Part shown: one piece after another, positions 4,886 to 31,742 of the stretch
Layout of the letters: every line of letters starts with the position of its first letter
How positions within the stretch are numbered: the first letter of the stretch is position 1
Assembly: GCF_000746255.1 (NCBI RefSeq)
Contig: NZ_JQKW01000006.1
Coordinates: forward strand, 186,001-250,000
DNA length: 64,000 nucleotides
Direction: 5' to 3'
DNA from: Thermodesulfobacterium hydrogeniphilum
Lineage (GTDB): Bacteria > Desulfobacterota > Thermodesulfobacteria > Thermodesulfobacteriales > Thermodesulfobacteriaceae
Program-made: the position numbers and the translations under genes
The notes under the pieces: model-generated
What the model saw: only the letters and a program-made list of their open reading frames with translations
Database searches by the model: none
Told to the model about the DNA's origin: nothing

Positions 4886-4888
4886 GAT

Positions 4889-13715: not shown

Positions 13716-14618
13716 ATGAATTACAAAAAGGTATTGTTGGGTTTAGGTGCAGTGATTTTAACTGGTGGTTTATGTTCGGTGAATAATGTTTTTTCTGGGC
13801 AAGCTTTAAATTTTCAAAATAATTCTAAAGTAATGTATCTTGCAAAGGCAGAAAAGGGGTCTCAAGAAAAAGTCCAATCAGTTTATAATTTTGAGGCAAA
13901 GCCTTTAAATATAGAGGAATGTGCAAGGTGTCACTATTCCATATTCAAGCTTATAAAAGAGCAAGGTGGAAAGCATAAAAAGGTGAAATGTACTGATTGT
14001 CATACTCAATTTCATGTTTATAATCCTGTAAAGAAAAACTGGGCTGAAATAATGCCCAAGTGCACAACCTGTCATGGTCTTATTCACGGTGGCAATTTTA
14101 CTGCTTGTTTGTCCTGTCATTCGGATCCACATGCACCTATCACTAAATTAAAAGTAACTCCCGAGCTTGCTAAAGCCTGTGCTCAGTGTCATCCTAATAT
14201 ACCTAAGGAAATGAAAGCCTTTCCAAGTAAGCATATGCAGGTTGCTTGTGCTTCCTGTCACCATACTAAACATGGATATATTCCTGATTGTTTAGAATGT
14301 CATAAACCTCATAGAGAAGGGCAGACTACAAAGCAATGTCTTGTTTGCCACCCAGCTCATACACCACTTAATATTAAATTTACCAAACAGACACCAAATG
14401 AAGATTGTAAAGCTTGTCACCAGACAGAATATCATAAGATTGCTATTACAAAGAGTAAACATCACAATGTAGCTTGTGTCCAGTGTCATACTAAACATAA
14501 GGAAATTCCTAAGTGTGAAAGATGCCATGGTAAACCTCATGGTGCATCACTTCATGCTAAGTTCCCCAACTGCTTACAGTGTCATATAGATGTTCATAAC
14601 TTACCTATCAAAAGATAA
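13716..14618 (+). CDS. Secreted dodecahaem c-type cytochrome (copy 1)
   Basis: The 300-residue protein has an N-terminal signal peptide (hydrophobic about 6-27) and 12 CXXCH haem c motifs from residue 69 to near the C-terminus: CARCH, CTDCH, CTTCH, CLSCH, CAQCH, CASCH, CLECH, CLVCH, CKACH, CVQCH, CERCH and CLQCH. Extra histidines (for example SKHMQ, SKHHN and KPHG) can supply distal ligands for bis-His haems. It shares layout and motifs such as HGYIPDCLxCHKPH with the 12-haem protein at 17137-17931, so the two are paralogues. A periplasmic or surface electron carrier is likely. It is transcribed alone from a consensus promoter and closed by a strong terminator, suggesting high or separately controlled expression. 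Confidence 0.93.
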   Translation: MNYKKVLLGLGAVILTGGLCSVNNVFSGQALNFQNNSKVMYLAKAEKGSQEKVQSVYNFEAKPLNIEECARCHYSIFKLIKEQGGKHKKVKCTDCHTQFHVYNPVKKNWAEIMPKCTTCHGLIHGGNFTACLSCHSDPHAPITKLKVTPELAKACAQCHPNIPKEMKAFPSKHMQVACASCHHTKHGYIPDCLECHKPHREGQTTKQCLVCHPAHTPLNIKFTKQTPNEDCKACHQTEYHKIAITKSKHHNVACVQCHTKHKEIPKCERCHGKPHGASLHAKFPNCLQCHIDVHNLPIKR

Positions 14619-14647
14619 CAAAAGTATGTAAGAAATGATATATTTCT

Positions 14648-14679
14648 AAACCCCCAGGTGATATCCTGGGGGTTTTTTT
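14648..14679 (+). terminator. Rho-independent terminator after dodecahaem copy 1
   Basis: AACCCCCAGG-TGATAT-CCTGGGGGTT forms a GC-rich stem in an AT-rich context, followed by a run of seven T. It separates this gene from the next cytochrome gene. Confidence 0.85.
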
Positions 14680-14717
14680 ATTTATTAAAAATTTTTCAAA
14701 ATTTTTTTATCAGCCTC

Positions 14718-14745
14718 TTGACAATTTAAAAATAATTTTTATAAA
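14718..14745 (+). promoter_or_regulatory. Sigma70-type promoter for the first CX5CH-type cytochrome
   Basis: TTGACA (14718-14723) and TATAAA (14740-14745) are separated by 16 nt. They lie about 70 nt before the start at 14818, which has an AGGAGGTG ribosome-binding site. Confidence 0.6.
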
Positions 14746-14817
14746 AATAATTAGAATATAAAAATAATTAGAAACTTAATAATAAAAATAAGAATAGAAA
14801 AAATAGGAGGTGTAATT

Positions 14818-15966
14818 ATGAAACGTTTAATTATTTTTATATTAACATTTTTATTATGTTTTATAGGATTATTTATAAATAAAAATTTACAAGCTAAAAT
14901 TACAGGTCCTTGTAGTAATTGTCATACTATGCATAATTCACAAAATGGTGAACCTATGGCTTATAATAATTCAACTACCCCTTATAGAGCCTTGACAAGA
15001 GGTGATTGTGTAGCATGTCATACAGGGACTAATCCTAATGATGAAAATATTCCTAAGGTTTATTCTACTTCTCAACCCAGTTATACATTTGGAGATGCCT
15101 CTAATAGAGCTACTTTAGCAGGGGGAAATTTTTATTGGGTTACTACAGATGACACCACAGGACATAATGTAAAGGGTATAGCAAATGTGGATAGTGATTT
15201 AGGGACAGTTCCTCCTGGTTATAACAGCAGTTATGCTGAAGATGCTGATAGACCTGCTACTTGGAATTCAACATATCAATTAAGTTGTGCTGGAGCTTAT
15301 GGATGCCATGGAGATCCTTCTAAAGGAACAGATGATTTTGCAGCTATTTCTGGAGCGCATCATAAAAATGTAGATTGTAATGGAACCAATTGTGATGGAT
15401 CTTATGTATATTCAAGTTACAGATTTTTGCTCGGTGTTAAAGGATTTGAAGATACACCTTCTACCACAGGTAGTAGCTTTGGTTGGGAATTAAATCCTGA
15501 TACTACCCATCATAATGGATATTATGCAGTGGATGATCCTAATGATAGTGATACTGATTATAACCATGGTTCTATAAACTGGCTTTGTGCTGAGTGTCAT
15601 GGTAATTTTCATGGAAGTAATGCTGGCTCTGGTTGCAGTCCTTGGTTAAGGCATCCTACAGATTATGATATGAATAACGTAGCTACTAAAGAGTATGGCA
15701 ATTATCCCAATATAGCTCTTTTTAATGGAACTATGGGAGTAAGTGCAGTTCATGATTACTTTGCTGATGTTCCTGTAGGTAATACAGCTGGAACTTTAAA
15801 ATCTACAGTTTTAAGTTCTGCAGGAGATGCTATAGTTCTCTGTCTTTCCTGCCACAGAGCTCATGGTTCTCCTTATGCAGATCTCTTAAGATGGGATTAT
15901 TCTGCTTGTACTGCAGGAAGCCAGAATGCTAATTGTGGATGTTTTGCCTGTCATACAAATAAATAA
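14818..15966 (+). CDS. Secreted multihaem cytochrome with CX5CH motif (copy 1)
   Basis: The 382-residue protein has a signal peptide (about 1-26), five CXXCH motifs (CSNCH at 32, CVACH at 64, CAECH, CLSCH, CFACH) and one CX5CH, CAGAYGCH at 157-164. Its paralogue at 28028-29119 has the same CX5CH (CAGTYGCH) in the same place, so the longer spacing is conserved and may bind a sixth haem. Other shared blocks are CSNCHTMHNSQN, TLAGGNFYWV, SYRFLLGVKG and WLRHPTDYDMNNV. The low haem density and Gly/Asn/Ser-rich spacers suit an extracellular cytochrome, perhaps a filament subunit, but no such homology was tested. It is a single-gene unit with its own promoter and terminator. Confidence 0.9.
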   Translation: MKRLIIFILTFLLCFIGLFINKNLQAKITGPCSNCHTMHNSQNGEPMAYNNSTTPYRALTRGDCVACHTGTNPNDENIPKVYSTSQPSYTFGDASNRATLAGGNFYWVTTDDTTGHNVKGIANVDSDLGTVPPGYNSSYAEDADRPATWNSTYQLSCAGAYGCHGDPSKGTDDFAAISGAHHKNVDCNGTNCDGSYVYSSYRFLLGVKGFEDTPSTTGSSFGWELNPDTTHHNGYYAVDDPNDSDTDYNHGSINWLCAECHGNFHGSNAGSGCSPWLRHPTDYDMNNVATKEYGNYPNIALFNGTMGVSAVHDYFADVPVGNTAGTLKSTVLSSAGDAIVLCLSCHRAHGSPYADLLRWDYSACTAGSQNANCGCFACHTNK

Positions 15967-15974
15967 ATTTTTTT

Positions 15975-16013: not shown

Positions 16014-16053
16014 TATGATCTTTTTAATGAATTTTGAGCATTTGTGAAACTTT

Positions 16054-17133
16054 ATGGATAGGGGAAAATTTTTTTTTTATAAAAAATATGAAATATTGTT
16101 TTTTGTTTTTTTATTTATTTTTTTTATATTTATATCCTTAGGTTTTTCTCAGGAAACATTTGAAGAAAATATTCCTATTAAAGAAGTCAAAGCGATTGCC
16201 ATTCTTAACAAAGATGAATATGGTAAACCCTTTATGTTTCCTATATCTGTTGCTATTGATCCAGTAACCTATGAAATATATGTAGTAGACTCTGGAAAGT
16301 CTGAGATTACTATTTATAGTCCTGATTTTTTTCCTAAGATAACTCTTGATAAAGGCAGAGGACTTAGAGCACCTTATGGGGTTGCTGTAGATAAAAATGG
16401 AACATTTTATGTAATACAGGCTTCTTCATCTGGGAAACCAGCCTGTTTAAGTATTTTTAATTCAGCAGGGCTTTTAGAAAAAGAGATTTATTTTAAAGAT
16501 CTTTCTTTTGAGGGATGTTCAAATTTTATTCCTGTGAGTATAGCTTTAGATAGAAGATATATATACATTGCAGGAGAAGGATTTGAAGGGGTTTTGGTTT
16601 TAAACAAAAAGGGAGATTTTGAAAAAATTATTACTGTTAAAGATAGTATAACTATGGATTTTCCCAAAAAAAAAGCTAAAATTAGAGCAGTTTATGTAGA
16701 TAAGAAGGGTAGGTTATATTTACTTAGTGAGGAAATGGGTAGATTTTATGTATTTGACAGCCTTGGAAATTTTCTTTTCAAAGGAGGGATTAAAGGAGGA
16801 ACTCCTGGTAAATTAAGCAGACCAAAGGGAATAGCTGCAGATCCTAATTTAGGCTTGATTTTAGTTGTAGATTATATGAGGCATTCAGGTCTGGCTTATG
16901 ATTACAATAATGGACATTTTTTATTTGAATTTGGTGGTAAAGGCTGGTCTCCAGGATGGTTTAATGGACCTACTGATATTAAAATAGATCGCTTTGGAAG
17001 AATTTATGTTGCTGATCTATTTAATAGAAGAGTTCAGGTTTTAGTTTTAGGTAAAGAAATAACTCCATATTTGGGACCATCTTTTATAACACCTTTACAA
17101 CCTGTAAGAAAGAGACTAAATAAAGTGAGGTAG
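16054..17133 (+). CDS. Secreted NHL-repeat beta-propeller protein
   Basis: The 359-residue protein has a long hydrophobic N-terminus (about 12-32), a signal peptide or anchor. It carries about six NHL-type repeats, for example MFPISVAIDPVTYEIYVVDS, APYGVAVDKNGTFYV, RPKGIAADPNLGLILVVD and GPTDIKIDRFGRIYVADLFN. Such propellers are protein- or ligand-binding scaffolds and no catalytic residues are evident. It is the first gene of the run that continues to 31742 with gaps of at most 25 nt or overlaps. Two more propellers lie in the same run, so a structural role in a surface electron-transfer complex is a reasonable guess, not shown. Confidence 0.82.
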   Translation: MDRGKFFFYKKYEILFFVFLFIFFIFISLGFSQETFEENIPIKEVKAIAILNKDEYGKPFMFPISVAIDPVTYEIYVVDSGKSEITIYSPDFFPKITLDKGRGLRAPYGVAVDKNGTFYVIQASSSGKPACLSIFNSAGLLEKEIYFKDLSFEGCSNFIPVSIALDRRYIYIAGEGFEGVLVLNKKGDFEKIITVKDSITMDFPKKKAKIRAVYVDKKGRLYLLSEEMGRFYVFDSLGNFLFKGGIKGGTPGKLSRPKGIAADPNLGLILVVDYMRHSGLAYDYNNGHFLFEFGGKGWSPGWFNGPTDIKIDRFGRIYVADLFNRRVQVLVLGKEITPYLGPSFITPLQPVRKRLNKVR

Positions 17134-17136
17134 AAA

Positions 17137-17931
17137 ATGAATAACAAAAGATTAATAGGTTTTTTAATAATCTTCTTTTTCATTTTAGAATTTGTTATTT
17201 ATCAAAAAATAAAGGCTAAGGAAACAACATCAGTTTTAACCGATGCTGATTGCATAAAATGTCATCCTTCTGAGGTTTCTCAAATTAAAACTGAAGGAGG
17301 AAAACATGCTAAAGTAAAATGTATAGACTGTCATAGAGGACATCCTCCTTTAGTTCCTAAGGAAAAAGTAATTCCTTCTTGTTCTGAGTGTCATAAAGGT
17401 AAACCACATTATACTTTAAGTAACTGTACAGGGTGTCATGTTAATCCTCATACACCTTTGGAAATTGTTTTGAAGGATAAAAAATTAAAGAAAGAATGCC
17501 TTAGTTGTCATTCTAAAGTGGGAAAAGAAATGGAAGAACATCCAAGTAAACATGAAAAATTGGCCTGCACTTATTGTCATATTAAGCATGGATATATTCC
17601 CGATTGTTTAAAGTGCCATAAACCACATTTCGCAGGACAAAAATTTGAAGATTGTATAAAATGCCATCCTGTTCATAAACCTACATATATTACCTATGGT
17701 TTGGATGTTCCTAATAGCTATTGTGGGGCATGTCACAAAGATATTCAGAAAATTTTAGAAAGTGGCAAGACCAAACATGCTCTTTTAAACTGTGCTTTTT
17801 GCCATAGAGGTAGACATAGAATTATACCACAGTGTGAAGCTTGCCATGGTATTCCTCATCCACAAAGTATGGTGAGACAGCATAAGGGATGTTTGGGGTG
17901 TCACGGAGATCCGCATAATTTGATAAAATGA
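17137..17931 (+). CDS. Secreted dodecahaem c-type cytochrome (copy 2)
   Basis: The 264-residue protein has a signal peptide (about 5-27) and 12 CXXCH motifs: CIKCH, CIDCH, CSECH, CTGCH, CLSCH, CTYCH, CLKCH, CIKCH, CGACH, CAFCH, CEACH and CLGCH. It is a paralogue of the protein at 13716-14618; both share GGKHxKVKCxDCH near the front and HGYIPDCLxCHKPH in the middle. One haem per about 20 residues implies a compact wire-like protein. It sits 3 nt after the propeller gene and 11 nt before the beta-barrel gene. That position fits the periplasmic or barrel-embedded cytochrome of a porin-cytochrome conduit, which is inference. Confidence 0.93.
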   Translation: MNNKRLIGFLIIFFFILEFVIYQKIKAKETTSVLTDADCIKCHPSEVSQIKTEGGKHAKVKCIDCHRGHPPLVPKEKVIPSCSECHKGKPHYTLSNCTGCHVNPHTPLEIVLKDKKLKKECLSCHSKVGKEMEEHPSKHEKLACTYCHIKHGYIPDCLKCHKPHFAGQKFEDCIKCHPVHKPTYITYGLDVPNSYCGACHKDIQKILESGKTKHALLNCAFCHRGRHRIIPQCEACHGIPHPQSMVRQHKGCLGCHGDPHNLIK

Positions 17932-17942
17932 TTTAAAGCCAA

Positions 17943-19874
17943 ATGATTATATTGTGTATAATTATATTTACAATTTTTTTTTGGATAAATGAAGTTTGTG
18001 CTATTAATCTTTCTGCAAGCTGGCATGGTGTAGAAGCTTCAGAAGCACCTACGGTATTTTCTCAAACCTATTCTTTTAGTTTTTCCCATGAACTTTCAAG
18101 AACCATGTTTTTTACAGGTAGTGTGAGATATTTGCGAACTGATCAAAAAGATGAATATAGAGAGATGATAACTCCATCTTTATTTTATGCTATAACAACA
18201 GATCTTTTTAATTATAATTTCGGTTTTTCATCTTTTCAATCCAGAAGCAATGATCGTCCCACTTTTAAAAATTATTCAATTACAAATACCCTTTCCACAA
18301 AGATAAAAAAAACCCGTGTAAGTCTTTATTATAACTTTGGAAGAAACTGGAATGAAGCGACTCCAAGAACACTGGATAATAAAAATGAAAGCTGGGGACT
18401 TAATTTATCACGCAATTTTTATGAAAAATACTTAAAAAATCTATCTTTAAGCTATTCATACCATTTTAACAAAGGTAAAGATTGTATTAATGGAGGTAAA
18501 ACAGAAACTTCTACTCACACTTTTAATGGACGTTATTCTAAAAATATAGGAAAGTTGAATTTCAGTATAGAACAAAAGTATTCTACTTCCACTACAGAAT
18601 CTTGGTATGCTTTAATTGGTGGAAAAGCAAAAGTGGAGATAGGTTTAACAACTAATGGAACTATACCCAATCCTCTTTATGACACGAATGCAACAATAGT
18701 TAAACTTCCTTCTGATCAATCTATAGATGGAATACAATTTTATACTGATTATGCCAATAGAATAACTATATCTTCTACAGTGTTTTTTGATATTTATTAT
18801 AGTAATGATGGGATCACATGGAACACTTTAGCAACCAGTGTTTCACTACCCTATACCTTTTCTTCTTCAATATCCTACACATGGCTTAAGTTAGTGGTAA
18901 AAAGTGGAGCGGGAAGTCCACCTTCTGGAGGAATAAATTTACCAGATCCCAAGATTGTAGGGTTTTATTATACTACAGAAGGACATACAAAAAGAAAAAA
19001 TACTTTTTATACAACTACCGGAAGTCTTTCTTATACTTTCCCAAAAGATATAAGAACAAACTATTTTGGATATTATGAAGTGCAAAAGTCTGACCCTGGT
19101 AATAAAAAGACTATTCAAAATCATTCCTTTTATACTTCTTGGGGAGGCAATCTCTACTTTAGACCATCTTTTAGTTTTAATATAAGCAAAACCAAGGATG
19201 GAAGTAAGCCGGAAACAAAAAGCACAACCTTTTCCGTAAGTGTATCTTCTACTCCCATAGATACAATTAATTTAGGGGTAGGATATTATAATAATAGATA
19301 TTATGAAGGAAGTAATAAAGTTTTTAAAACTCAATTTTATTCTTTTTCAGGAGTATTTAATATCTTTCCTGACCTTACCTTAAGAACAAATTTGAATTAT
19401 AATAAAAACAAAAGTTATGTTTCCAAGGTTGAACAAAATAGTTACGGAAGTAGTATAGATTTATTTATGAGGTTAAAATCCAATTTAACTGCAGAGTTTA
19501 AAATAAATTATACTCATTCTAAAAACACTTATGAAAATGGAACTGCCACTTCAGCTTCTAATCAAAAATATGGTGTTTTAATAGACTGGAGAATTTCACA
19601 AATTCTGCATTTTACTACTTCTCAATATTTAAACAGTTCTTCGGATAAAACAAATTATACTTTTTTCTATAGTGTATACTTTGCTCCTTGGAAAAGAATA
19701 AGGTTGAGTTCTTCTTATTCCGGTATAAGAAATGATGAAAAAACAGATAATATAGCTTTAAATTTAATCTGGGATTTAGGACCTCATATAAATTTCAATA
19801 CTTCTTATACTTGGAATAAAATTGAAGGAGATACAAAATGGAGCTGGAATTGGACCCTGAATTTAACATTTTAA
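17943..19874 (+). CDS. Large outer-membrane beta-barrel protein (putative conduit porin)
   Basis: The 643-residue protein has a signal peptide cleaved near residue 20 (VCA|INLS) and long runs of alternating polar/aromatic residues typical of transmembrane beta-strands, such as LSLSYSYHFNKG, LTLRTNLNYNKNK and INFNTSYTWNKIEG. It ends in LNLTF, the terminal Phe recognised by the BAM machinery. Residues about 225-346 look like an inserted beta-sandwich resembling a discoidin/F5-F8 type C domain (FFDIYYSNDGITWNTL, then a Trp-containing strand). It contains no haem motif. Flanked by 12-haem cytochrome, propeller and lipoprotein genes, it is the best candidate for the outer-membrane sheath of an electron conduit. 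No similarity to MtrB was tested. Confidence 0.8.
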   Translation: MIILCIIIFTIFFWINEVCAINLSASWHGVEASEAPTVFSQTYSFSFSHELSRTMFFTGSVRYLRTDQKDEYREMITPSLFYAITTDLFNYNFGFSSFQSRSNDRPTFKNYSITNTLSTKIKKTRVSLYYNFGRNWNEATPRTLDNKNESWGLNLSRNFYEKYLKNLSLSYSYHFNKGKDCINGGKTETSTHTFNGRYSKNIGKLNFSIEQKYSTSTTESWYALIGGKAKVEIGLTTNGTIPNPLYDTNATIVKLPSDQSIDGIQFYTDYANRITISSTVFFDIYYSNDGITWNTLATSVSLPYTFSSSISYTWLKLVVKSGAGSPPSGGINLPDPKIVGFYYTTEGHTKRKNTFYTTTGSLSYTFPKDIRTNYFGYYEVQKSDPGNKKTIQNHSFYTSWGGNLYFRPSFSFNISKTKDGSKPETKSTTFSVSVSSTPIDTINLGVGYYNNRYYEGSNKVFKTQFYSFSGVFNIFPDLTLRTNLNYNKNKSYVSKVEQNSYGSSIDLFMRLKSNLTAEFKINYTHSKNTYENGTATSASNQKYGVLIDWRISQILHFTTSQYLNSSSDKTNYTFFYSVYFAPWKRIRLSSSYSGIRNDEKTDNIALNLIWDLGPHINFNTSYTWNKIEGDTKWSWNWTLNLTF

Positions 19875-19899: not shown

Positions 19900-20481
19900 A
19901 TGAAACAGGGTATCAGATTTTTAAGGGGGCTAATTTTTCTATGTCTTCTGGTTTTAATATGTTCATGTGCAGAAATCAGGCCTGGGATTAAGAGTTATTT
20001 AAGGCCTGGGATTGATCCAAGATATGTAAAAAAGGTAGCTGTTTTGAAATTTGCTAATCATACACTTGATAAATTGGCTGGAGAGAGGATAAGAGATCTT
20101 GTAATTATGGAAGCACTCGCTTTAAAGAAGTTTGATGTAGTGGAGAAAGGTTTAGTTGATGAGGTTTTGTCTGAAGAAGGAGTAGATGCTACTTTTACTT
20201 TAAATAAAGAAACTATAAAAAGAATAGGAGCTAAATTAAAAGTTCCGGCAATTTTGGTTGGTTCTGTGATTACCTTAGAGAAAAAAAGAGAGGGAAGTTA
20301 TACATATCCTGTTGTGTCTATTTCTTTGAGATTGATTGATGTTGCTTCAGGAGAAGTTATATGGGAAGCGACAGGGGTAGACACAGGTTATAGTGTCTTG
20401 GGAAGAATTTTCGGTTGGTCTCCTAAAAATGAAATAGAAGTTAGTATGGCTTTAATTGAAAAGCTTTTGAAAACTTTTTAA
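19900..20481 (+). CDS. CsgG-like lipoprotein (A)
   Basis: The 193-residue protein has a lipoprotein signal with lipobox LICSC (acylated Cys near residue 23). The mature part has the pattern of the CsgG / nucleotide-binding-like outer-membrane lipoprotein fold: VKKVAVLKFANHTLDKLAGERIRD near residue 44, FDVVEKGLVDEVLSEEG, a long helix, VPAILVGSVI, and VSISLRLIDVASGEVIWEATG. CsgG oligomers form an outer-membrane secretion pore in curli export, and relatives serve as assembly factors. A GGGGG ribosome-binding site precedes the ATG. It is the first of three related genes in a row (19900-22531). Confidence 0.78.
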   Translation: MKQGIRFLRGLIFLCLLVLICSCAEIRPGIKSYLRPGIDPRYVKKVAVLKFANHTLDKLAGERIRDLVIMEALALKKFDVVEKGLVDEVLSEEGVDATFTLNKETIKRIGAKLKVPAILVGSVITLEKKREGSYTYPVVSISLRLIDVASGEVIWEATGVDTGYSVLGRIFGWSPKNEIEVSMALIEKLLKTF

Positions 20482-21951
20482 ATGAAGATGAGATTAAAAA
20501 TATTGTTTTTTACAATTTGTTATTTTTTTATTTTTATAAAAATTGGATTTACTCAAATTGCGGTTTTTCCTTTTGAGGATTTTAGCGGGAATGAAGAAGT
20601 AAATATAAAATTTGCAGAAAAAGTGGCAAGTTATTTGGTTACGCAGGGAATAAAGGTGATTTATCCCCAAGAAGTAATAAAAGAACTTATCAAATTGAGA
20701 ATTAAAAGGATAGGAGTTATTGATAGGGTTGTAGCAAGAGAGATATTTTTAAAATTAAAAGCTCAATATATTTTATTAGGAAGTATTTATGAATTAGATA
20801 AAGAAGTTCCAAGTTTATGTGTAGGGATAAGAATTTTAAAAGCTAAGAATTGTAAACTTGTATGGAGTAAAATTTTTTCATTTTGTGGAAAAGACTATCA
20901 TCCAATTTTAGGTATAAAAAAAATAACTTACGAAGATATTTTAAAAAAATGCTTTAATAATCTATTTGCAGGTTTTAAAGAAGAAAAAATAAATGTGATG
21001 TATTCCTCTCCGGTTTTAGAAATAGAAAATGTAATATTTAAAACAAAAAGTGTAAAACCTGGGAATACAATAGAGGTAGCATTAAAGTTAAAATTTTCTG
21101 GTCCTAAACCTGAGAAATTAATGTTAAATGTGGGTGATGATAAATTGGTTCCTTTATTAAAAACAGGTGCTTATTATATTGCTTTTTGGAGAGCAGATTT
21201 AAAAGAGGGTAAATATCCAATTATTCTTATATCCAAATGGGACAAAAATTGGAATACTCAAAAAAAAATATTTATAGGATCTTACACAGTAGATAATACT
21301 CCTCCGCAGATTAAATTGGAGTTTTGGGGGGTTAAAAAGTTGGCAAATATGATAGCATTTAATAAATATTTAGAGATAAGACCCAAAATTTTAAAAAAAG
21401 AGAAAATAACAAGATGGAAATTAGAAATTTTATCTAAAAAAAATAAAATTGTTGTTATGGAAGAACAACCGGGAGATCTTCCTTCAACTTTTTTTTGGAG
21501 AGGAATAGATAACTCTGGTAAAGCTGTTCCTCCAGGTGTTTATAAACTTAGACTAAGTGTATGGGATGAGGCTGGGAATCTCAAAGTAATAGAAAAGAAG
21601 ATGCTTGTGGTAAAAAAGCTTCCTGAAATAGAACTCAGAGCTTTTAAAATAGATAATAAAATAAGAATAATTATAAATGTGAAAAAGCACATTATTCCTA
21701 TTAGAGAAATGAGAGTGGAGATATGGGATAATAAAGGGAATTTAATTAAAAAGCTTGATAAAAAAGAATTAAAAAAGGGTAAAGTTGTTTTGGATAACCT
21801 GCCTTTAAATTTAAACTATGAAATAGTTGCGATAGATGTTTTAGGGAATAAATTGTTTGTTAAAGACAAAATCAATCCCCAGGTTTTAAAGAAAAAGAAA
21901 AAAGAAGAGAAAAAAACTCCCAAGGCTGAGGAATGGGTTCATGAATTTTAA
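20482..21951 (+). CDS. CsgG-like N-domain plus FlgD-type Ig domain protein (B)
   Basis: The 489-residue secreted protein has a signal peptide (1-24). Residues 25-170 resemble the neighbouring CsgG-like lipoproteins (IAVFPFEDFSGNEEVN, AQYILLGSIYEL, GIRILKAKNCKLVWSK) but lack a lipobox. A middle beta domain follows. Residues about 290-372 match FlgD-type immunoglobulin repeats: FFWRGIDNSGKAVPPGVYKL and then VWDEAGN. The C-terminus is lysine-rich (KKKKKEEKKTPK). It begins directly after the stop of lipoprotein A and overlaps the next gene by 11 nt. The mix suggests a periplasmic or surface scaffold; function unknown. Confidence 0.72.
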   Translation: MKMRLKILFFTICYFFIFIKIGFTQIAVFPFEDFSGNEEVNIKFAEKVASYLVTQGIKVIYPQEVIKELIKLRIKRIGVIDRVVAREIFLKLKAQYILLGSIYELDKEVPSLCVGIRILKAKNCKLVWSKIFSFCGKDYHPILGIKKITYEDILKKCFNNLFAGFKEEKINVMYSSPVLEIENVIFKTKSVKPGNTIEVALKLKFSGPKPEKLMLNVGDDKLVPLLKTGAYYIAFWRADLKEGKYPIILISKWDKNWNTQKKIFIGSYTVDNTPPQIKLEFWGVKKLANMIAFNKYLEIRPKILKKEKITRWKLEILSKKNKIVVMEEQPGDLPSTFFWRGIDNSGKAVPPGVYKLRLSVWDEAGNLKVIEKKMLVVKKLPEIELRAFKIDNKIRIIINVKKHIIPIREMRVEIWDNKGNLIKKLDKKELKKGKVVLDNLPLNLNYEIVAIDVLGNKLFVKDKINPQVLKKKKKEEKKTPKAEEWVHEF

Positions 21952-22531
21952 AAATAAAAAAGTTTTTCATAGGTTTATTTTTTTAATATTATTAATCAGT
22001 CTTTCTTCATGTTTTAGAAAAGGGATAATTACAAAAGAACTTACTTCTAAAAGATTTAAAGTTTGTAAAATAGCTGTTTTTCCTTTTTATAATCTTACTA
22101 AAAATGAAAAGCTTAGTGATATGTTAGTTCAGATGTTTACAATAGATATGGTTAGAAAAGGTATAGAGGTCGTTGAACCTGGATTGGTAAAAAATTTCCT
22201 TTTTAGAGAAAGGATTTTAAATCCTTTATATATAAAGGCAGAAACTTTAAAAAAATTCAGATATGAAACAGGGGCAGATATAGTTATTGGTGGACAAATT
22301 ATTAAAGTTTCACAAGTGGGTGATAATGTAAAATTAGCTTTGTTAATATGGGCAAGAAGTACATCAACAGGAGATTTTATATGGTATACTTTTTACAGAA
22401 GAGAAGGAGAAGATTATAGAAAGGTTTTTCATTTTGGAAAAATATCGTCACTTAGTGCTTTAGCTCAAAGAATGGTAGAGGAAATTATTAAAGATTGGGA
22501 AAATAGGGGGTTTTTTAAATGCGAAATGTAA
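21941..22531 (+). CDS. CsgG-like lipoprotein (C)
   Basis: The 196-residue protein has a lipobox LSSC (acylated Cys near residue 24). The fold pattern matches the two preceding genes: CKIAVFPFYNLTKNEKLSDMLVQ, IEVVEPGLVKNFL, a TGADIVIGGQII strand, and LALLIWARSTSTGDFIWY. It overlaps the previous gene by 11 nt and the SurA-like gene by 13 nt, so these four genes are almost certainly co-translated. Three CsgG-type proteins in tandem could form a hetero-oligomeric outer-membrane ring; the sequence alone does not show this. Confidence 0.76.
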   Translation: MNFKNKKVFHRFIFLILLISLSSCFRKGIITKELTSKRFKVCKIAVFPFYNLTKNEKLSDMLVQMFTIDMVRKGIEVVEPGLVKNFLFRERILNPLYIKAETLKKFRYETGADIVIGGQIIKVSQVGDNVKLALLIWARSTSTGDFIWYTFYRREGEDYRKVFHFGKISSLSALAQRMVEEIIKDWENRGFFKCEM

Positions 22532-24123: not shown

Positions 24124-26017
24124 AAATTTAATTGTTATTTTAGTATTATTAATTTCCTTCTGTTTAAATGTTTCTTCTGCAAGTCCAGAAGAAAAAAGCA
24201 AGGGGTGTTTAGATTGTCATCCGAAATTTTTAGAAAAACTCAAAAAAGAAGGAAGTTGTTTACATCCAGAAGTAAAAAAGAGAAATTGTTATGCTTGCCA
24301 TTATCCTCATGGGATTATTAAAGGAGCATTTCTTAAGAGTAGACCACCTTTTTTGTGTTTGGAGTGTCATAAAGATTTAGAAAACAACCTAAAAGAAGCC
24401 AAAGTAGTTCACACACCTGTTAACAGAGGAGAATGTAATAAGTGTCATGGAATCCATGGAGCAAATTATAAAAAACTCTTAAAAGTCCCTGTTGACAAGT
24501 TATGTCTGGAGTGCCACAAAGATATATTAAAAGGTAAAAAACATAAAGCTCTTGATAAAGGGTGTATTTACTGTCATGATCCTCACACTTCTAAAAACGA
24601 TGCTTTATTAAGAAAAAGTCCTGAAAAACTTTGTTTAGATTGTCATAAACCTGAGGCTTTAGCCAAAGCTCATCATGGGTTACCTGTAAAAACAAGATGC
24701 ATATCTTGTCATAATCCACATTCTTCTGAAAAACCTAAGCTTTTCCAAGAATATATCCATTTACCTGTTCAAAAAGGAGAATGTAATAAATGCCATAACA
24801 AAGGAAAATTAACTTTGAGGAAGCCAGTTCCAGAGCTGTGTTTTGATTGTCATAAAAAAGAAGAATATAAAAATCTACATAAACCTTATAAAACAGGTAA
24901 ATGTAGTGAATGTCATGACTTTCATGGAAGCAAGTATAAATATCATTTAAAAGTAAAACCTGATAAACTTTGTATTACCTGTCATTCCTATTCTTTGAAA
25001 GAACAAAAGAAAAAGCATCATATACATTCTATAGTTAAAGAAGGAAAATGTATAACCTGCCATAATCCGCATGGTTCTAATAGGGATTGGTTTTTAAAGG
25101 CTTCTTCAGGAGATCTTTGTATTAAATGTCATGCTAAGATATTGACAGGCAATAAAAAACATCCACCTGTGGAGCAAAAAAATTGTTTACTTTGCCATAA
25201 TCCTCATGATTCCGATTATCTTCATCTTTTAAAGAAATATCCTACAGAAAAATTATGCTTAAATTGTCATAAGGATATTGAAGTTCAAAAGGAACTTTTT
25301 AGCCTTCATACACCTTTTGCTCATGGAAAATGTGAAGGTTGTCATAATCCTCATTCTTCCAATTATAAAAATTTATTAAAGACTTCAAAAACTAATTTAT
25401 GTGAGACTTGCCACAAAGACTGGTTTAAACTTCAAAAAGGAAAATTGCATGCTCCTGTTAAAAAAAGAGATTGCGAACTTTGTCATAACCCTCACGCAGG
25501 AAACTATGCTCTTCATGCTCCAAAACCTATGGTTGATATATGTTATTCCTGTCATTCTGATGTAAAAAACGAAGTAAAACATAAAAAGGTTGTTCATTTA
25601 CCTGTAAAAGAAGACGAATGTATAAGGTGTCATGAACCTCATAGCAGTAAAGAAATAGCTTATTTGAGAAAGAAACCTCAGAAATTATGTTTATCCTGTC
25701 ATAAAGATATAGATGAATTCTGGAAACAAGGGGTAGCGCATCCACCAGCTAAAAAGAATTGTAAAAATTGCCATGTTCCTCATGCTTCAGATTATAAATT
25801 CCTGCTAAAAAATGATATTTCCAAGACTTGTATAAGATGTCATAAAGTCAATAAAAAATTGATAAATGTTCATGAAGGAATTATACCTGAATCAGGAAGT
25901 TGTATAATGTGTCATAATCCTCATGGAGCTCCTGATGAATCACTTTTATGGACAGGTTCTATGCATTCTCCCTTTGCAGAGAAAGATTGTAAAATATGTC
26001 ATGGAGGAAAAAAGTGA
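24113..26017 (+). CDS. Secreted 26-haem c-type cytochrome
   Basis: The 634-residue protein has a signal peptide (1-23) and 26 CXXCH motifs by my count, first CLDCH at 32-36 and last CKICH near the C-terminus. The motifs come in pairs (doubled CXXCH units) of roughly 45-50 residues with the pattern LCxxCHK, then H-x-P-V-x-x-G-x-C-x-x-CHNPHGS. About 13 tandem units are implied, so the protein is probably an elongated molecular wire grown by repeat duplication. No catalytic domain or lipobox is evident. It overlaps the SurA-like gene by 11 nt, and the following 16-haem gene starts at its stop codon. A periplasm-spanning or extracellular location fits. Confidence 0.94.
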   Translation: MKNKNLIVILVLLISFCLNVSSASPEEKSKGCLDCHPKFLEKLKKEGSCLHPEVKKRNCYACHYPHGIIKGAFLKSRPPFLCLECHKDLENNLKEAKVVHTPVNRGECNKCHGIHGANYKKLLKVPVDKLCLECHKDILKGKKHKALDKGCIYCHDPHTSKNDALLRKSPEKLCLDCHKPEALAKAHHGLPVKTRCISCHNPHSSEKPKLFQEYIHLPVQKGECNKCHNKGKLTLRKPVPELCFDCHKKEEYKNLHKPYKTGKCSECHDFHGSKYKYHLKVKPDKLCITCHSYSLKEQKKKHHIHSIVKEGKCITCHNPHGSNRDWFLKASSGDLCIKCHAKILTGNKKHPPVEQKNCLLCHNPHDSDYLHLLKKYPTEKLCLNCHKDIEVQKELFSLHTPFAHGKCEGCHNPHSSNYKNLLKTSKTNLCETCHKDWFKLQKGKLHAPVKKRDCELCHNPHAGNYALHAPKPMVDICYSCHSDVKNEVKHKKVVHLPVKEDECIRCHEPHSSKEIAYLRKKPQKLCLSCHKDIDEFWKQGVAHPPAKKNCKNCHVPHASDYKFLLKNDISKTCIRCHKVNKKLINVHEGIIPESGSCIMCHNPHGAPDESLLWTGSMHSPFAEKDCKICHGGKK

Positions 26018-27186
26018 GGTTTAGATTATATTTACTTTTTATAATAGTAAGTGTGATAAACCTTATTTGGTTTAAGTTTGTTGTAGCAAAAGAAGTGTGT
26101 TTTAAATGCCATAAAGTTGAAAAATTTAAGAGCAAACTTGTCCATTCTCCTGTAGCTAAAAAGGATTGTGAAGCATGCCATACACCTCATGTATCCAAGT
26201 TTAATAAACTTTTGATTGCAAAGGTTCCAGATATTTGTTATCAATGTCATCCCAATTTTTTAGAAGATATGCAGAAAGCTGAATGGGTTCATTCTCCTGT
26301 AGAAAAAGGAGAATGTTTGAAGTGTCATCAACCTCATGCAGGATATAGAGGTTTATTGAAAAAGTCAGAAAAAGCACAGTGTTTAACTTGTCATAAAAAA
26401 CTAAAAAAAGAATCATTTAAGTTTATTCATAAACCATTTAAAGAAGGTAAATGTCATATATGTCACAATCCTCATTTTTCTCAAAATTCATATCTTCTTA
26501 AGTTTAAGGAAGAGACGATATGTTTAAATTGTCATAAATTAGAAAAGATAAAAAGCACCCATAGATACTATTCCAAAAATATGGAATGTTTAAGCTGTCA
26601 TAATCCTCATGGAAGCAATAATGAGTATTTAATAAAACAGTATATGCATAAACCTTATGCTCAGAAAAATTGTAAAGTTTGTCACGAAAATCTTGCTAAG
26701 GGTTCTGATATGTGCTTTAGTTGCCATTCTGAGGTTAAAAAGGATTTCTTTAAAGTCCATACTCACTACTTACCTTCTAATAAAAAAGCATTTTGTTTAG
26801 ATTGTCATTCTCCTCACACTTCTGATTATAAAACACTTTTAAAAGGCTCTCCTTCATCTGTTTGTTTTAAATGTCATCCAGAAGCTTTAAAACAACAGAG
26901 AGATAGTCTTTATGTTCATCCTTCTCATGATCAGTGTCTTAATTGTCACAATGCTCATGGGTCTGAAACCTTGGGTATGCTTAAAGGAACACAGATTTCA
27001 ACCTGTGGAAGATGTCATAAAAGACATGTAAAATTTACCCATCCTATAGAAAAAGTGAAAGATCCGAGAAATGGGCAAACTCTTACCTGTATAACCTGCC
27101 ATGATCCTATGGGAACAGAGTTTAAAAATAATTTAAGATTAAATGGAGATAAAGAGCTATGCTTAGAGTGTCACAAAGGTTATTGA
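26014..27186 (+). CDS. Secreted 16-haem c-type cytochrome
   Basis: Start: GTG at 26014 has GGAGG six nt upstream and overlaps the preceding TGA. An in-frame ATG at 25996 would add six residues but has no ribosome-binding site. The product, about 390 residues, has a signal peptide and 16 CXXCH motifs: CFKCH, CEACH, CYQCH, CLKCH, CLTCH, CHICH, CLNCH, CLSCH, CKVCH, CFSCH, CLDCH, CFKCH, CLNCH, CGRCH, CITCH and CLECH. The same doubled-motif repeat as in the 26-haem protein is present (CHNPHGSNNEYL, CHSPHTSDYKTLLK), so the two likely share a repeat ancestor. Its end overlaps the next propeller gene by 28 nt if that gene starts at its first ATG. Confidence 0.93.
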   Translation: MRFRLYLLFIIVSVINLIWFKFVVAKEVCFKCHKVEKFKSKLVHSPVAKKDCEACHTPHVSKFNKLLIAKVPDICYQCHPNFLEDMQKAEWVHSPVEKGECLKCHQPHAGYRGLLKKSEKAQCLTCHKKLKKESFKFIHKPFKEGKCHICHNPHFSQNSYLLKFKEETICLNCHKLEKIKSTHRYYSKNMECLSCHNPHGSNNEYLIKQYMHKPYAQKNCKVCHENLAKGSDMCFSCHSEVKKDFFKVHTHYLPSNKKAFCLDCHSPHTSDYKTLLKGSPSSVCFKCHPEALKQQRDSLYVHPSHDQCLNCHNAHGSETLGMLKGTQISTCGRCHKRHVKFTHPIEKVKDPRNGQTLTCITCHDPMGTEFKNNLRLNGDKELCLECHKGY

Positions 27187-28040
27187 TAGGTTTATTTGTT
27201 CTTTTAAGTATTTTATTTTTTTGTAGAAAAGGAAGCTGTTGGGAGTGGATGCTAACATTGTATAAAGCACCAGATGGAACCAATCTCTATCATCCTATGA
27301 GTGCTATTTATGCTAAAAATAAATTTTATGTAGCAGATACAGGCAATAGCAGATTGATTTCTTATAATATTAAAGGAGAACCTTTGGTTGCAGTAAATCC
27401 AGGAGGAAAATTAAAAGCACCTTTAGATTTAACTTTTGATAAAATAGGTAATCTGTGGGTTGTAGAAAGATCAGATAATATGCTTTTAAAAATCAATTTT
27501 AAAGAAAAAAAAGTTGAATCTTTTAAGCTCTATTATAAAGGAAAAATTTTATTTCCTGAAAGAGTGAACTATGTAGGACCTTATTTATATGTGCTTGATA
27601 GAGAAACAGGAGGGGTTGCTTTTGTTAATATAGAAAATAAAAAACCTATGGTTGAAAAAATTTGGATTCCTAAGGAAAAAAATTTTTCAGGGTTTATAGA
27701 TTTTAAAGTAAAAAAAGATGGAATCTGGGCTCTTGAGAGAAATAGTTTTAAAGTTTTTTACTTGGATAAAAATGGCAAAGAAAAGGTATGGAATTTACCA
27801 GAAAGTTTGGTTTATCCCATTTCTATTGAGGTAACAGAAAATCATTTATTAGTTTTGGATAGATATTTAAGAAAAATATTTATTTTTGATTTAAAAAATA
27901 ATTTCAAACTTGCAGGGAGTTTTTTAGAACTTGGCTGGACAAAAGGTAAGGTTTATCTTCCTCGTGAAATAAAAATGAGCTTTTTGGGGCTCTTGATAGT
28001 TGATGAAGGAAATGGTAAGGTAGAAATATGGAAAAAGTAA
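27159..28040 (+). CDS. Secreted NHL-like beta-propeller protein
   Basis: The 293-residue protein has a hydrophobic signal (about 8-24) and beta-propeller repeats such as HPMSAIYAKNKFYVADTGNS, APLDLTFDKIGNLWVVERSD and YPISIEVTENHLLVLDRYLR. The ATG at 27159 lies inside the end of the 16-haem gene; a TTG at 27183 is an alternative start that would shorten the overlap. No enzyme active site is visible. It overlaps the downstream CX5CH cytochrome gene by 13 nt, so it may be a partner of that cytochrome, as the propeller at 16054 is next to a 12-haem protein. Confidence 0.78.
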   Translation: MLRVSQRLLIGLFVLLSILFFCRKGSCWEWMLTLYKAPDGTNLYHPMSAIYAKNKFYVADTGNSRLISYNIKGEPLVAVNPGGKLKAPLDLTFDKIGNLWVVERSDNMLLKINFKEKKVESFKLYYKGKILFPERVNYVGPYLYVLDRETGGVAFVNIENKKPMVEKIWIPKEKNFSGFIDFKVKKDGIWALERNSFKVFYLDKNGKEKVWNLPESLVYPISIEVTENHLLVLDRYLRKIFIFDLKNNFKLAGSFLELGWTKGKVYLPREIKMSFLGLLIVDEGNGKVEIWKK

Positions 28041-29119
28041 AAATAAGCTTGGGAATAATTGTAAGCTTATTTTTAATGATTTTATTCAATACTCAGGGTA
28101 TATGTAAAGTTACAGGTGTTTGCAGTAATTGTCATACCATGCATAATTCTCAAAATAACCAACCTATGGTTTATGGTAATTCTACCATTCCTATAAAAGC
28201 ACTATTAAGAAAGAACTGTTTAGAATGCCATACAGGGAAAAATACTGGTGATAATACAATTCCTTATGTTTTAGATACTTCAGAACCCGGTTATACATTT
28301 GGAGATGCTTCTGGTAGAGAAACTTTAGCAGGAGGTAATTTTTATTGGGTTTATAAAGGCAACTATAGAGATGGTCATAATGTAGCAGGACTGGATCCTG
28401 ACGATTCTTTATCTTCTCCGCCGGGGTTTGATTCAGCTTATAGAAATATTTCATGGTCAGGTCAACAGGTGACCTGTGCTGGAACTTATGGTTGTCATGG
28501 AGATCCTTCAAAAACAGATCCTATTGAAGCTGTTTTGGGAGCACATCATAAAAATGAACTTTGCAATGCCACTCTTGGGAATTGCGATGGTAGCACAGTA
28601 GCAAAAAGTTATAGATTTCTGTTAGGTGTCAAGGGAACAGAGGATCCTGATTGGGAATTACATCCTGATACCCTTCATCACAATGGATATTATGCAGTGG
28701 ATAATCCTACAGGAGGAACTGAAAATTCTGGATCTATTAACTGGCTATGTGGTCAGTGTCATGGAAATTTTCACTCAGATAATGGAGGTGCAAGTCCCTG
28801 GTTAAGGCATCCTACAGATTATGATATGAACAATGTGAAAAATAAAGAGTATGGTAACTATCCCAATATAGCTTTATTCTCTGGCAAATTAGGAGTTTCT
28901 GCAACTTATGATTATTTTGCTGATGTCCCTGTAGGTAATACTCAAGGGGTGGTTCTCAGTCAAGTTCTTCAAAATTCTGGTGATGCTATAGTTTTATGTG
29001 TTTCTTGTCATAGAGCTCATGGTTCACCTTACTGGAAAAGCTTAAGATGGGATTACAAAGGATGGCCAGGAAATGGTGAACTTAATGGTTGTAATGCATG
29101 CCATACTACAAAATATTAA
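28028..29119 (+). CDS. Secreted multihaem cytochrome with CX5CH motif (copy 2)
   Basis: The 363-residue paralogue of the protein at 14818-15966 has a signal peptide (about 1-26), five CXXCH motifs (CSNCH at 32, CLECH at 64, CGQCH, CVSCH, CNACH) and CAGTYGCH at 150-157, a CX5CH in the same position as in copy 1. Conserved blocks CSNCHTMHNSQN, GGNFYWVY, SYRFLLGVKG, WLRHPTDYDMNNV and CHRAHGSPY are shared. Histidines outside the haem motifs (GAHHKN, LHHNGYY, NFH) can act as distal ligands. It lies within the long operon, unlike copy 1, so the two copies may be used under different conditions. Confidence 0.9.
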   Translation: MEKVKISLGIIVSLFLMILFNTQGICKVTGVCSNCHTMHNSQNNQPMVYGNSTIPIKALLRKNCLECHTGKNTGDNTIPYVLDTSEPGYTFGDASGRETLAGGNFYWVYKGNYRDGHNVAGLDPDDSLSSPPGFDSAYRNISWSGQQVTCAGTYGCHGDPSKTDPIEAVLGAHHKNELCNATLGNCDGSTVAKSYRFLLGVKGTEDPDWELHPDTLHHNGYYAVDNPTGGTENSGSINWLCGQCHGNFHSDNGGASPWLRHPTDYDMNNVKNKEYGNYPNIALFSGKLGVSATYDYFADVPVGNTQGVVLSQVLQNSGDAIVLCVSCHRAHGSPYWKSLRWDYKGWPGNGELNGCNACHTTKY

Positions 29120-29134
29120 CAACATGTTAGAAAA

Positions 29135-30445
29135 ATGAGAAAAATTTTGTACCTTATAGCAATTTTTGTTTTACTTAAATTTCATTTATCTTTTGCTGGG
29201 CGAATTTCTGTATTTTGCAATCTTTATCATAACAGTGGAATAAATGCTGTAATGGAAATAAAGGAAATAACAATTCAAGGGGAAAGGGGATATCAGATTT
29301 TGGATCTTAAAAATTCTGAAATTTCAACTCAACTCCCTTTTTCTCAAACTTTGATTGCAACAGGTATAGTTCCTTCAGGAAAATATAATAAAATAAAAAT
29401 AGTTTTAAAGAAAGTTATTTTTGAAGGAAAAAATTTAAAAATTTCTCAAAAAATTATAGAGCTTCCTATAAGTTTTGAATTAAAAAAAGGTGATAGCAAA
29501 AGTTTATTTTTGAACTGGAATGTAGCTGAATCTTTTGGAAATGTTTTTTGCCCAAGATTTTATGTAAGTTTACCTTATAAACCTCTACCCGGAGAAAATT
29601 TGTTTGTTTTTTCCAAAGATACGGTTTGGATAATAGATCCTAACTTAAATCAAGTGATTTATTCATTTGGAATAACAGGAGAACCTCAAGGAGTAGCAGT
29701 AGATTTAAACAATAACAAAATTTATGTAGTTTGTAAAAAAGAAAAGGTAATTAAAGTTATTAATATGAATTCCTTTCAGGTGGTAGAAATTATTCCTATT
29801 CCACTTTTAAAGATTCCTCAATTTATAGCTCTTGGAGAAGAAGGAGAAGCTCTAATAACTTCACCAGAGGATTATATGATTTTGGTAATGGATCTCTCAA
29901 CAGGAGGCATAATTTCTCAAAGAAAGCTTAATTTTATGCCCTATGAAGCCTACTATTTGAAAAGCATTGGGAAATTTATAGTATCTTCTTATGATGAAGG
30001 AGCGGTTTATTTATATGATAGCAATTTATCTTCTGAAACAAGATTAACAGGAGGATTTAGAACTGAGGGATTTGTATCTGATGGAGAATTTCTGTATCTT
30101 ACAGACACTCAGGGAGGAGTTCATGTGTATATTTTGCCTCAGCTTCAATACAGAGGTAAAATTAATGCCTGTGATAGTACTTTAAGAGGGATTTCAGCAG
30201 ATGATAAAATTTTTATTACCTGTAGAGAAGGAAAGGTGATTTTAATAAGTCAAGGGGGTTATGTTGAAAGAACTATAGAGACTGAAGGAAAGATTTTTGC
30301 TATAGTATATCTTCCCAAGAAAAAGTGGATTTATGTAGGATTTAGTGAAGAAGATGCTATTGGAGTGATAGATCTTGTCAGGGAAAAATTTTTAGGCAAA
30401 ATAAGTATTGGAGGGATACCCCGTGAGCTGGCTTCAAGTGATTAA
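29135..30445 (+). CDS. Secreted YVTN/YncE-like beta-propeller protein
   Basis: The 436-residue protein has a signal peptide (1-21). An N-terminal beta domain of about 130 residues (RISVFCNLYHNSGINAVMEI onward) resembles a DUF4382-like immunoglobulin-type fold, but I am not sure. From about 160 a propeller follows with YVTN-like repeats: NLFVFSKDTVWIIDPNLNQV, GVAVDLNNNKIYVVCKKEKV, FLYLTDTQGGVHVYIL and KWIYVGFSEEDAIGVIDL. It overlaps the next cytochrome gene by about 23 nt. It is the third propeller of the cluster. The role is unknown; surface attachment or complex scaffolding is possible. Confidence 0.76.
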   Translation: MRKILYLIAIFVLLKFHLSFAGRISVFCNLYHNSGINAVMEIKEITIQGERGYQILDLKNSEISTQLPFSQTLIATGIVPSGKYNKIKIVLKKVIFEGKNLKISQKIIELPISFELKKGDSKSLFLNWNVAESFGNVFCPRFYVSLPYKPLPGENLFVFSKDTVWIIDPNLNQVIYSFGITGEPQGVAVDLNNNKIYVVCKKEKVIKVINMNSFQVVEIIPIPLLKIPQFIALGEEGEALITSPEDYMILVMDLSTGGIISQRKLNFMPYEAYYLKSIGKFIVSSYDEGAVYLYDSNLSSETRLTGGFRTEGFVSDGEFLYLTDTQGGVHVYILPQLQYRGKINACDSTLRGISADDKIFITCREGKVILISQGGYVERTIETEGKIFAIVYLPKKKWIYVGFSEEDAIGVIDLVREKFLGKISIGGIPRELASSD

Positions 30446-31742
30446 AAAAGCCCTTTTTGTTTTGAGTTTTTTATTTATAGTTTTTTATTTTTATAATTAT
30501 GCAAATTCTGAATCATATTTAAATTCAGCTCATGGGAATGGAACTTATGGAGTAAAAAGAGATGTAACAGAGTTGTCAGATTATTCACAGGGAAATTGTG
30601 CCCATTGTCATGAAATGCATGGAAGTATTAATGGAAATGAACCCAGTCCAGCAGGTGGTAGCCCTTCTCCTTGGGCGTTATTTGCTGACAATTTTAATAA
30701 TGGAACTACCACAGGACCTTACTCTCAAAGTGATGATTTTTGCTTTTATTGTCATGGTCCCTCTTCTCTCCAGTCAAATGGAATTACAAATTATGATTAT
30801 AGTCAAACTTTTGGAGGTGCACCTCAAAATTTAAACGCTACTAATATTATGGATGCTTTTAACCAGCTTTCTTATCACAATTTGTACGATATTTGGAATT
30901 TTGCTAAACAAAATTTTTCTTTTTTTAAAGAAAGTTCCAATCCATGCGTAGCATGCCATAATATTCATATTGCTCAGAGAAGTTGCGGAAAACCTGAAGG
31001 ATCTTTTAATCCTTCATATTCAGCTATTTCTAAACCATCTGATCATGCTCATTTATGGGGAGACAATGATACAGAAAGGATGAATTATTATGCTAGTGGT
31101 TATACTTATCAAGCACCTTACTGGTGTGGTACTACAACTTATTATGAACCTGCTGGTGATACTACTTATGATGGGTCTAATATGCCTGATTATGTCACTT
31201 TCTGCACAGATTGTCATAATAATTCAAATGAAATTTATAGCACTACCTTAGGTCGTAATCTTTATAAAATTGATTGGGAGACTACAGGTGGGGAGAGTGG
31301 AGGTGATAAACATGGAAAAAATACAGCTACTGTTAGCACAAATCTTAAGGCTCCATATAACAACGCTACAGGTTTTGTAGTTTCTTGTTTAGATTGCCAT
31401 GAGCCTCATGGTGCACCAAATGTAATGTTAATCAGACGAGAAGTTAATGGTGAGAAGCTGCCTGGAAATATTACTACTTTAGATACTTCTAACTGGGCTT
31501 ATTTATGTGGACGTTGCCATAAGGATGATTCATATTATGGAGGATCCGCTGGTGAGTTTGAATACATTCACCATTTAGATACTAATGATGCACCATACCC
31601 CGGACCTCCTAAGTCATGTGGTACATGTCATGATTGGGATCATGCACCTATTAAATGCAATAAATGTCATTTTCATGGAGGAGATGATAGCTGGTTGCAA
31701 AATGTTTATCCTTCTGAATATACAGGAAGAAGATGTTTTTAA
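30423..31742 (+). CDS. Secreted octahaem c-type cytochrome
   Basis: I choose GTG at 30423, 7 nt after GGAGGG; a TTG at 30408 is in frame but lies at the ribosome-binding site. The product of about 439 residues has a signal peptide and eight CXXCH motifs: CAHCH, CFYCH, CVACH, CTDCH, CLDCH, CGRCH, CGTCH and CNKCH. SYLNSAHGNGTYGVKR followed by GNCAHCHEMHGS near the N-terminus is a block I associate with large-spacer cytochromes of metal-reducing bacteria, from memory only. The spacers are rich in Gly, Asn, Tyr and Ser, as expected for an extracellular protein. It is the last gene of the cytochrome operon and converges on thi4. Confidence 0.9.
   Translation: MSWLQVIKKALFVLSFLFIVFYFYNYANSESYLNSAHGNGTYGVKRDVTELSDYSQGNCAHCHEMHGSINGNEPSPAGGSPSPWALFADNFNNGTTTGPYSQSDDFCFYCHGPSSLQSNGITNYDYSQTFGGAPQNLNATNIMDAFNQLSYHNLYDIWNFAKQNFSFFKESSNPCVACHNIHIAQRSCGKPEGSFNPSYSAISKPSDHAHLWGDNDTERMNYYASGYTYQAPYWCGTTTYYEPAGDTTYDGSNMPDYVTFCTDCHNNSNEIYSTTLGRNLYKIDWETTGGESGGDKHGKNTATVSTNLKAPYNNATGFVVSCLDCHEPHGAPNVMLIRREVNGEKLPGNITTLDTSNWAYLCGRCHKDDSYYGGSAGEFEYIHHLDTNDAPYPGPPKSCGTCHDWDHAPIKCNKCHFHGGDDSWLQNVYPSEYTGRRCF

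Follow-up and report, generated by a model that had tools for sequence, protein, structure and literature searches.

A conserved OmcS-companion cassette in Thermodesulfobacterium hydrogeniphilum, with a probable role in exporting and electrically contacting cytochrome filaments

In Geobacter sulfurreducens, the osc (OmcS-companion) genes have been linked to folding and secretion of OmcS nanowires (PMC12977616, PMC13194489); as far as Shen et al. 2025 is cited in PMC13194489, the proposed roles are folding for OscH, secretion for OscE, OscF, and OscG, and morphology for OscD, while OscI and OscJ correspond to GSU2495 and GSU2494. A core of propeller, 16-haem cytochrome, 26-haem cytochrome, and peptidyl-prolyl isomerase (PPIase) has been described in partners of anaerobic methanotrophic archaea (ANME), in Geobacter, and in Thermodesulfobacteriales (Skennerton 2017, PMC5539420), and an Oet-type conduit with OmcS/OmcX companions has been named by Murali 2023 (PMC10553843), with OetI assigned as the conduit porin; both papers note homologues in Thermodesulfobacteria. 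The DNA examined here (the window: 64,000 nt of Thermodesulfobacterium hydrogeniphilum contig NZ_JQKW01000006.1, positions 186,001 to 250,000) contains at 13716-31742 an 18-kb cluster of cytochrome, propeller, barrel, lipoprotein, and chaperone genes (Table 1). A preliminary description regarded this as a distinct assembly, but the 26-haem/16-haem pair, PPIase, and propeller were already published in 2017 (PMC5539420) and 2023 (PMC10553843), and the ordered block recurs in 26 named loci: the cluster is a member of the known osc/Oet-type cassette. We put at roughly two in three the probability that this cassette serves a thermophilic sulfate reducer to fold OmcS-type cytochrome filaments, export them, and make electrical contact with them.

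The cluster consists of 15 co-directional open reading frames (ORFs) on the + strand, with 12 of the 14 gaps between genes at most 25 nt and the remaining two 199 and 87 nt. Its seven cytochromes have, in gene order, 12, 5, 12, 26, 16, 5, and 8 CXXCH motifs (84 in all), with one CX5CH apiece in the two 5-haem proteins. No other ORF of at least 80 aa in the window has a CXXCH, so the clustering of haem proteins is far beyond chance. Pfam matches include cytochrome c7/c3/paired-CXXCH domains, beta-propellers in three proteins, and a PPIC rotamase domain in 22519-24123; GC content is 31.1%, against 29.8-30.4% in the flanks. Together with an AlphaFold2 model of the barrel, these counts and matches bear out the earlier inventory of seven multihaem cytochromes, three propellers, one large barrel, and a SurA-like chaperone, tightly packed on one strand.

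The osc cluster of G. sulfurreducens (GSU2504-GSU2493) was compared by way of the cultured Geomonas diazotrophica (L095), whose order (OmcS, propC, barrel, csgG1, csgG2, PPIase, 26-haem, 16-haem, propB) parallels GSU2501-GSU2493. To the extent that osc is laid out in the sources available, the two share gene order and an OmcS-like cytochrome, propeller, barrel, small CsgG-like proteins, PPIase, and 26-haem and 16-haem cytochromes. On the same partial account, the window differs in having three small CsgG/PelC-like proteins rather than two, in having two OmcS-like proteins whose third haem site is CX5CH, and in adding a 12-haem pair with a third propeller, plus an 8-haem cytochrome. The SEEP-SRB1/HotSeep-1 operon of ANME partners (PMC5539420; Oet, PMC10553843) has the common core of propeller, 16-haem, 26-haem, and PPIase, with smaller cytochromes, but in the tree the window genes cluster with their own order, well separated from the Eth-SRB1 contig and the sequences around it. 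With MtrCAB of Shewanella (PDB 6r2q) the window shares, by fold, MtrA-like wires and an MtrB-size barrel; unlike MtrCAB, it has no confirmed MtrC-like extracellular subunit, and it adds PelC-type lipoproteins, a PPIase, and OmcS-type subunits. As in PelBC exopolysaccharide export (PDB 9h80, 5t11), a PelC-family lipoprotein would stand beside a barrel, but nothing marks the window barrel as PelB, and the cargo would be protein, not polysaccharide.

Gene order was compared across 80 named loci collected with the 26-haem profile. An ordered core of barrel, CsgG-like proteins, PPIase, 26-haem, and 16-haem genes was found in 26 of them, including Geomonas, Nitrospira, and an Eth-SRB1 contig (L085), whose barrel is homologous to that of the window (168.9 bits) and has shared neighbours; the 26 are from Thermodesulfobacteriota, Myxococcota-labelled loci (several under the old “Deltaproteobacteria” name), Nitrospirota, Acidobacteriota, and one Pseudomonadota bin. 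Same-order relatives keep barrel-csgG1-csgG2-csgG3-PPIase-26-haem-16-haem-propB-OmcS, with a second module, OmcS-propA-c12b-c12a, beside that block or divergent from it; in Geomonas and Nitrospira the 12-haem pair is absent from the cassette. A Heimdallarchaeota-labelled contig (L068, JAMOVR010000148.1) has the cassette at 44% identity, and is probably a mis-binned bacterial contig.

Few members of the genus have the cassette (of 13 other genomes, 1 has the barrel and 2 have OmcS-like genes), and in the window it lies at a synteny breakpoint, relatives having PGAM followed by other genes (e.g., exbB/exbD/tonB) and thi4 elsewhere. Acquisition as a recent island was nevertheless rejected. In a tree of concatenated barrel, csgG1, and csgG2 sequences, the window groups first with its genus mate, next with members of its family, and after that with members of its order; because this tracks genome kinship, and because the GC content of the cluster is ordinary, vertical descent with repeated loss fits better.

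A link to filaments comes from the two 5-haem cytochromes. A family profile of 32 rows matched OmcS in the PDB (6ef8/6nef, E 2.1e-28) over most of its length, and nothing else strongly; the profile was required for this match, as single-sequence phmmer searches of the PDB with the OmcS-like and 8-haem proteins returned none. Both omcSa and omcSb products are thus possible filament subunits, which leaves a simple conduit reading incomplete. Of the extracellular electron conduit proposed in the preliminary description, what survives is very probably a gene set for extracellular electron transfer, with an outer-membrane partner and a conserved order.

The CX5CH residues (C157, C163, H164) are invariant across the 32-row alignment, and align at the third CXXCH (haem 3) of OmcS. 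CX5CH is present in most closer relatives, Geobacter-like relatives have six CXXCH, and a 7-haem subfamily has a CXXCH at the aligned position. Since the conserved CX5CH aligns with haem 3, both of these “pentahaem” OmcS homologues are probably hexahaem, with CX5CH as the sixth haem site. A disulfide at this position was also considered, but is disfavoured by the alignments with OmcS haem 3 and with the CXXCH of the 7-haem subfamily. A text search found no papers using the term CX5CH, which is weak evidence only.

The barrel is modelled by AlphaFold2 with confidence (predicted local distance difference test, pLDDT, 91.8) as a large structure of about 28 long strands, although it has no clear match in Pfam. 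A beta-rich insert at residues ~228-344, after strand 11, would be outside the cell, counting from a periplasmic N-terminus. Its best structural match in the PDB is MtrB (6r2q_B; Foldseek E 2.7e-10, Z 20.3), at 8-11% identity; with LptD, FimD/ushers, and TonB-dependent receptors close behind (Z 17-20), this match indicates a size class rather than a family. In four loci (L071, L073, L075, and L113) a 10- to 14-haem cytochrome adjoins the barrel in place of the 12-haem pair, and the barrel's cytochrome neighbour is therefore exchangeable.

The product of 19900-20481, immediately beyond the barrel gene, matches CsgG (E 1.2e-5) and LpoB (E 1.4e-5) about equally in Pfam and, at 193 aa, is short for CsgG. 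Its profile found PelC (5t11) best in the PDB (E 8.6e-10), and no CsgG chain at E≤0.1. It is accordingly classed, on sequence, as a putative PelC-family outer-membrane lipoprotein, with PelC, not CsgG, as its nearest solved structure. PelC itself forms a twelve-lipoprotein periplasmic ring on the export barrel PelB (PMC12141448). Of the three CsgG-like proteins originally listed, this one is a clear lipoprotein of the CsgG/LpoB superfamily, and the other two are only weaker relatives; orthologues of 21941-22531 also match csgG1, at 24-30% identity.

MtrA-type repeats recur among the larger cytochromes. The 26-haem protein has Mtr complex chain A (6r2q_A) as its best PDB match (E 1.1e-13), as does a profile of c12a and c12b (E 1.4e-8). 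In 11 named loci, mostly from Acidobacteriota, 26-haem and 16-haem proteins are fused into one with 42 haems (once 43); in alignment, haems 1-26 of the 42-haem fusions correspond to the window 26-haem protein, and haems 27-42 to its 16-haem protein. Fusion and consecutive alignment suggest that the two proteins act end to end. One modelled 42-haem fusion has MtrA, chain A of the Mtr complex, as its structural match; because the junction in this model is weak (pLDDT about 51 near residue 645; predicted template modelling score 0.49), no length was taken from it. The 16-haem rows were left out of the alignment used for this model, as they misaligned onto its N-terminal part.

As for anchoring, relatives of the 26-haem protein have a lipobox cysteine, and c12a is a lipoprotein in several same-order relatives. 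In the window these cysteines are in non-canonical contexts (ISFC and GGLC, respectively), for which reason outer-membrane anchoring of both proteins may have been lost in this genome. OetB, an outer-membrane cytochrome lipoprotein in the Oet-type conduit, could not be matched to a particular gene. Separately, in four loci of one sister genus (L046, L048, L050, and L051) the first motif of the 16-haem homologue is CX4CH (CFNGGCH in the first three, CFTQGCH in L051), and the CXXCH count of these proteins is therefore 15.

These parts can be assembled into a mechanism, in which the secretion steps follow from the reported roles of the homologues and from the PelC match, and electrical contact from the MtrA-like wires and their fusion. 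By analogy with OscH, the PPIase (22519) would chaperone the OmcS-like subunits (14818, 28028) in the periplasm; by analogy with OscE/F/G, the barrel of ~28 strands (17943) would export them, with polymerisation outside. A ring of PelC-type lipoproteins (19900, perhaps with 20482 and 21941) would sit on the periplasmic face of the barrel, and the propellers might cap the filament or its base, or give either its shape. The MtrA-type wires, comprising the 26-haem and 16-haem proteins working as a single chain of 42 haems and the 12-haem pair, would connect carriers in the periplasm electrically to the base of the filament at the outer membrane. Electrons would probably come from outside, to end in Hmc-type complexes and sulfate reduction. 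A more elaborate version, which we consider tentative and rather unlikely, combines export portal and electrical socket in one structure: a PelC ring on an MtrB-size barrel, with a 42-haem wire crossing the periplasm and plugged into a filament that has a CX5CH haem.

Several points weigh against a role in filament export and contact. Geobacter OmcS, the only one known to form a wire (PMC12977616), is a distant relative of the OmcS-like proteins in the window, and there is dispute over what OmcS filaments do physiologically (PMC11077965). Two of the three small proteins give little help to a PelC-type ring: 20482-21951 matches PelC weakly (profile positions 86-149, E 0.005-0.015), and 21941-22531 has no match in the PDB, PelC included. 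The likeness of wires and barrel to MtrA and MtrB, moreover, would suit a static porin-cytochrome conduit equally well. This makes a strict Oet-type conduit a real rival: the OetI barrel would permanently house an MtrA-type cytochrome, and the OmcS-like proteins would dock outside, with no export. MtrB is after all the top structural match of the barrel, the 12-haem and 26-haem proteins match MtrA, and Murali et al. call OetI a conduit porin and saw the cluster in Thermodesulfobacteria (PMC10553843). We nonetheless judge it unlikely, since the MtrB match is shared with other large barrels, in Geomonas and Nitrospira the cassette lacks the 12-haem pair, the presence of PelC-type lipoproteins and of a PPIase suggests export in preference to an MtrCAB-like complex, and secretion and folding roles have been proposed for the Geobacter homologues, so far as these are reported in the papers citing them. 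That the cytochromes are periplasmic, serving electron storage or detoxification, with barrel and lipoproteins unrelated to them, would agree with several having no clear membrane anchor in this genome; homology to OmcS, and an order of barrel, lipoprotein, PPIase, and cytochrome genes that is kept in different phyla, make this very improbable.

The machinery might also work as proposed but, as in Geobacter, deliver electrons to minerals or other acceptors outside the cell. The best-studied homologues, at the OmcS locus, are in metal reducers, which favours this possibility; we rate it as somewhat unlikely. The host genome (1.687 Mb in 13 contigs) has dsrA, and two loci (L185 and L186; G000:C1, C8) that each encode an Hmc-like transmembrane complex together with a 16-haem cytochrome. 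Other Thermodesulfobacterium species are partners receiving electrons from ANME-1c or Alkanophaga (PMC9539880, PMC10322722): Candidatus T. torris, the ANME-1c partner, has cytochromes of up to 26 haems and strongly expresses a “pentahaem” OmcS-like protein (PMC9539880), and Candidatus T. syntrophicum, another partner species, has six multihaem cytochromes (PMC10322722). Given the sulfate metabolism of the host and these syntrophic members of its genus, electrons are no less likely to flow in than out, though the wires may be reversible and sequence cannot decide the direction. Outward flow, as supposed in the preliminary description, is therefore not borne out; the homologous cassettes of syntrophic sulfate reducers are thought to import electrons.

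Elsewhere in the host genome, one locus (L184 3507-6588; G000:C13:31506-34587) encodes an 8-haem and a 13-haem cytochrome and, after them, a cytochrome b-like membrane protein of 210 aa; it is a candidate for a quinone-linked point at which electrons enter or leave the periplasm. To the left of the cluster, the window has type IV pilus assembly-like genes in pilM/N/O/P/Q order (2248-6838, + strand) and two type IV pilin-like genes (10922-11647, - strand); in Geobacter, pilin is reported to be necessary for OmcS export (PMC12307469).

Table 1. Genes of the 13716-31742 cluster, in window coordinates.
Feature	Position	Strand	Basis
c12a, 12-haem cytochrome, MtrA/DmsE-like repeat family	13716..14618	+	12 CXXCH; orthologues in same family and order
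omcSa, OmcS-family cytochrome, putative filament subunit	14818..15966	+	5 CXXCH + CX5CH; OmcS profile
propA, NHL beta-propeller	16054..17133	+	Pfam NHL E 2.9e-15; adjoins 12-haem pair in relatives
c12b, 12-haem cytochrome, c12a paralogue	17137..17931	+	12 CXXCH; 40% identity to c12a
Large outer-membrane beta-barrel, OscE/OetI equivalent	17943..19874	+	AlphaFold2 model, ~28 strands
PelC-type outer-membrane lipoprotein (csgG1), OscF equivalent, CsgG/LpoB superfamily	19900..20481	+	Lipobox ICSC; PelC profile match
PelC/CsgG-like N-terminal domain with FlgD-type Ig domain, OscG equivalent	20482..21951	+	FlgD_ig E 5.1e-7
Small lipoprotein, distantly related to the PelC-type 19900 product	21941..22531	+	Lipobox LSSC
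SurA/PpiC-type PPIase chaperone, OscH equivalent	22519..24123	+	Rotamase_2 E 4.2e-21; syntenic in 26 named loci
26-haem cytochrome, OscI equivalent, MtrA-type repeats	24113..26017	+	26 CXXCH
16-haem cytochrome, OscJ equivalent	25996..27186	+	16 CXXCH
propB, NHL beta-propeller, 3′ of 16-haem gene	27159..28040	+	NHL E 2.9e-5; position kept in relatives
omcSb, second OmcS-family cytochrome	28028..29119	+	5 CXXCH + CX5CH; 65% identity to omcSa
propC, beta-propeller with N-terminal DUF4382-like domain, OscD-like by position	29135..30445	+	Neighbour conserved in relatives
c8, secreted 8-haem cytochrome, TTG start	30408..31742	+	8 CXXCH; orthologues at same place, mostly 7-8 haems

Neither the export of cytochrome nanowires nor the way in which they connect to the cell is yet settled (PMC12307469). 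Conservation of the cassette, its likeness to PelC, and the 26+16-haem fusions lead to testable predictions, of a lipoprotein ring on the barrel and of a 42-haem wire. Since syntrophic partners of archaea that oxidise methane or alkanes at 70°C belong to this genus, the genes described here are natural candidates for the route by which such partners take up electrons.

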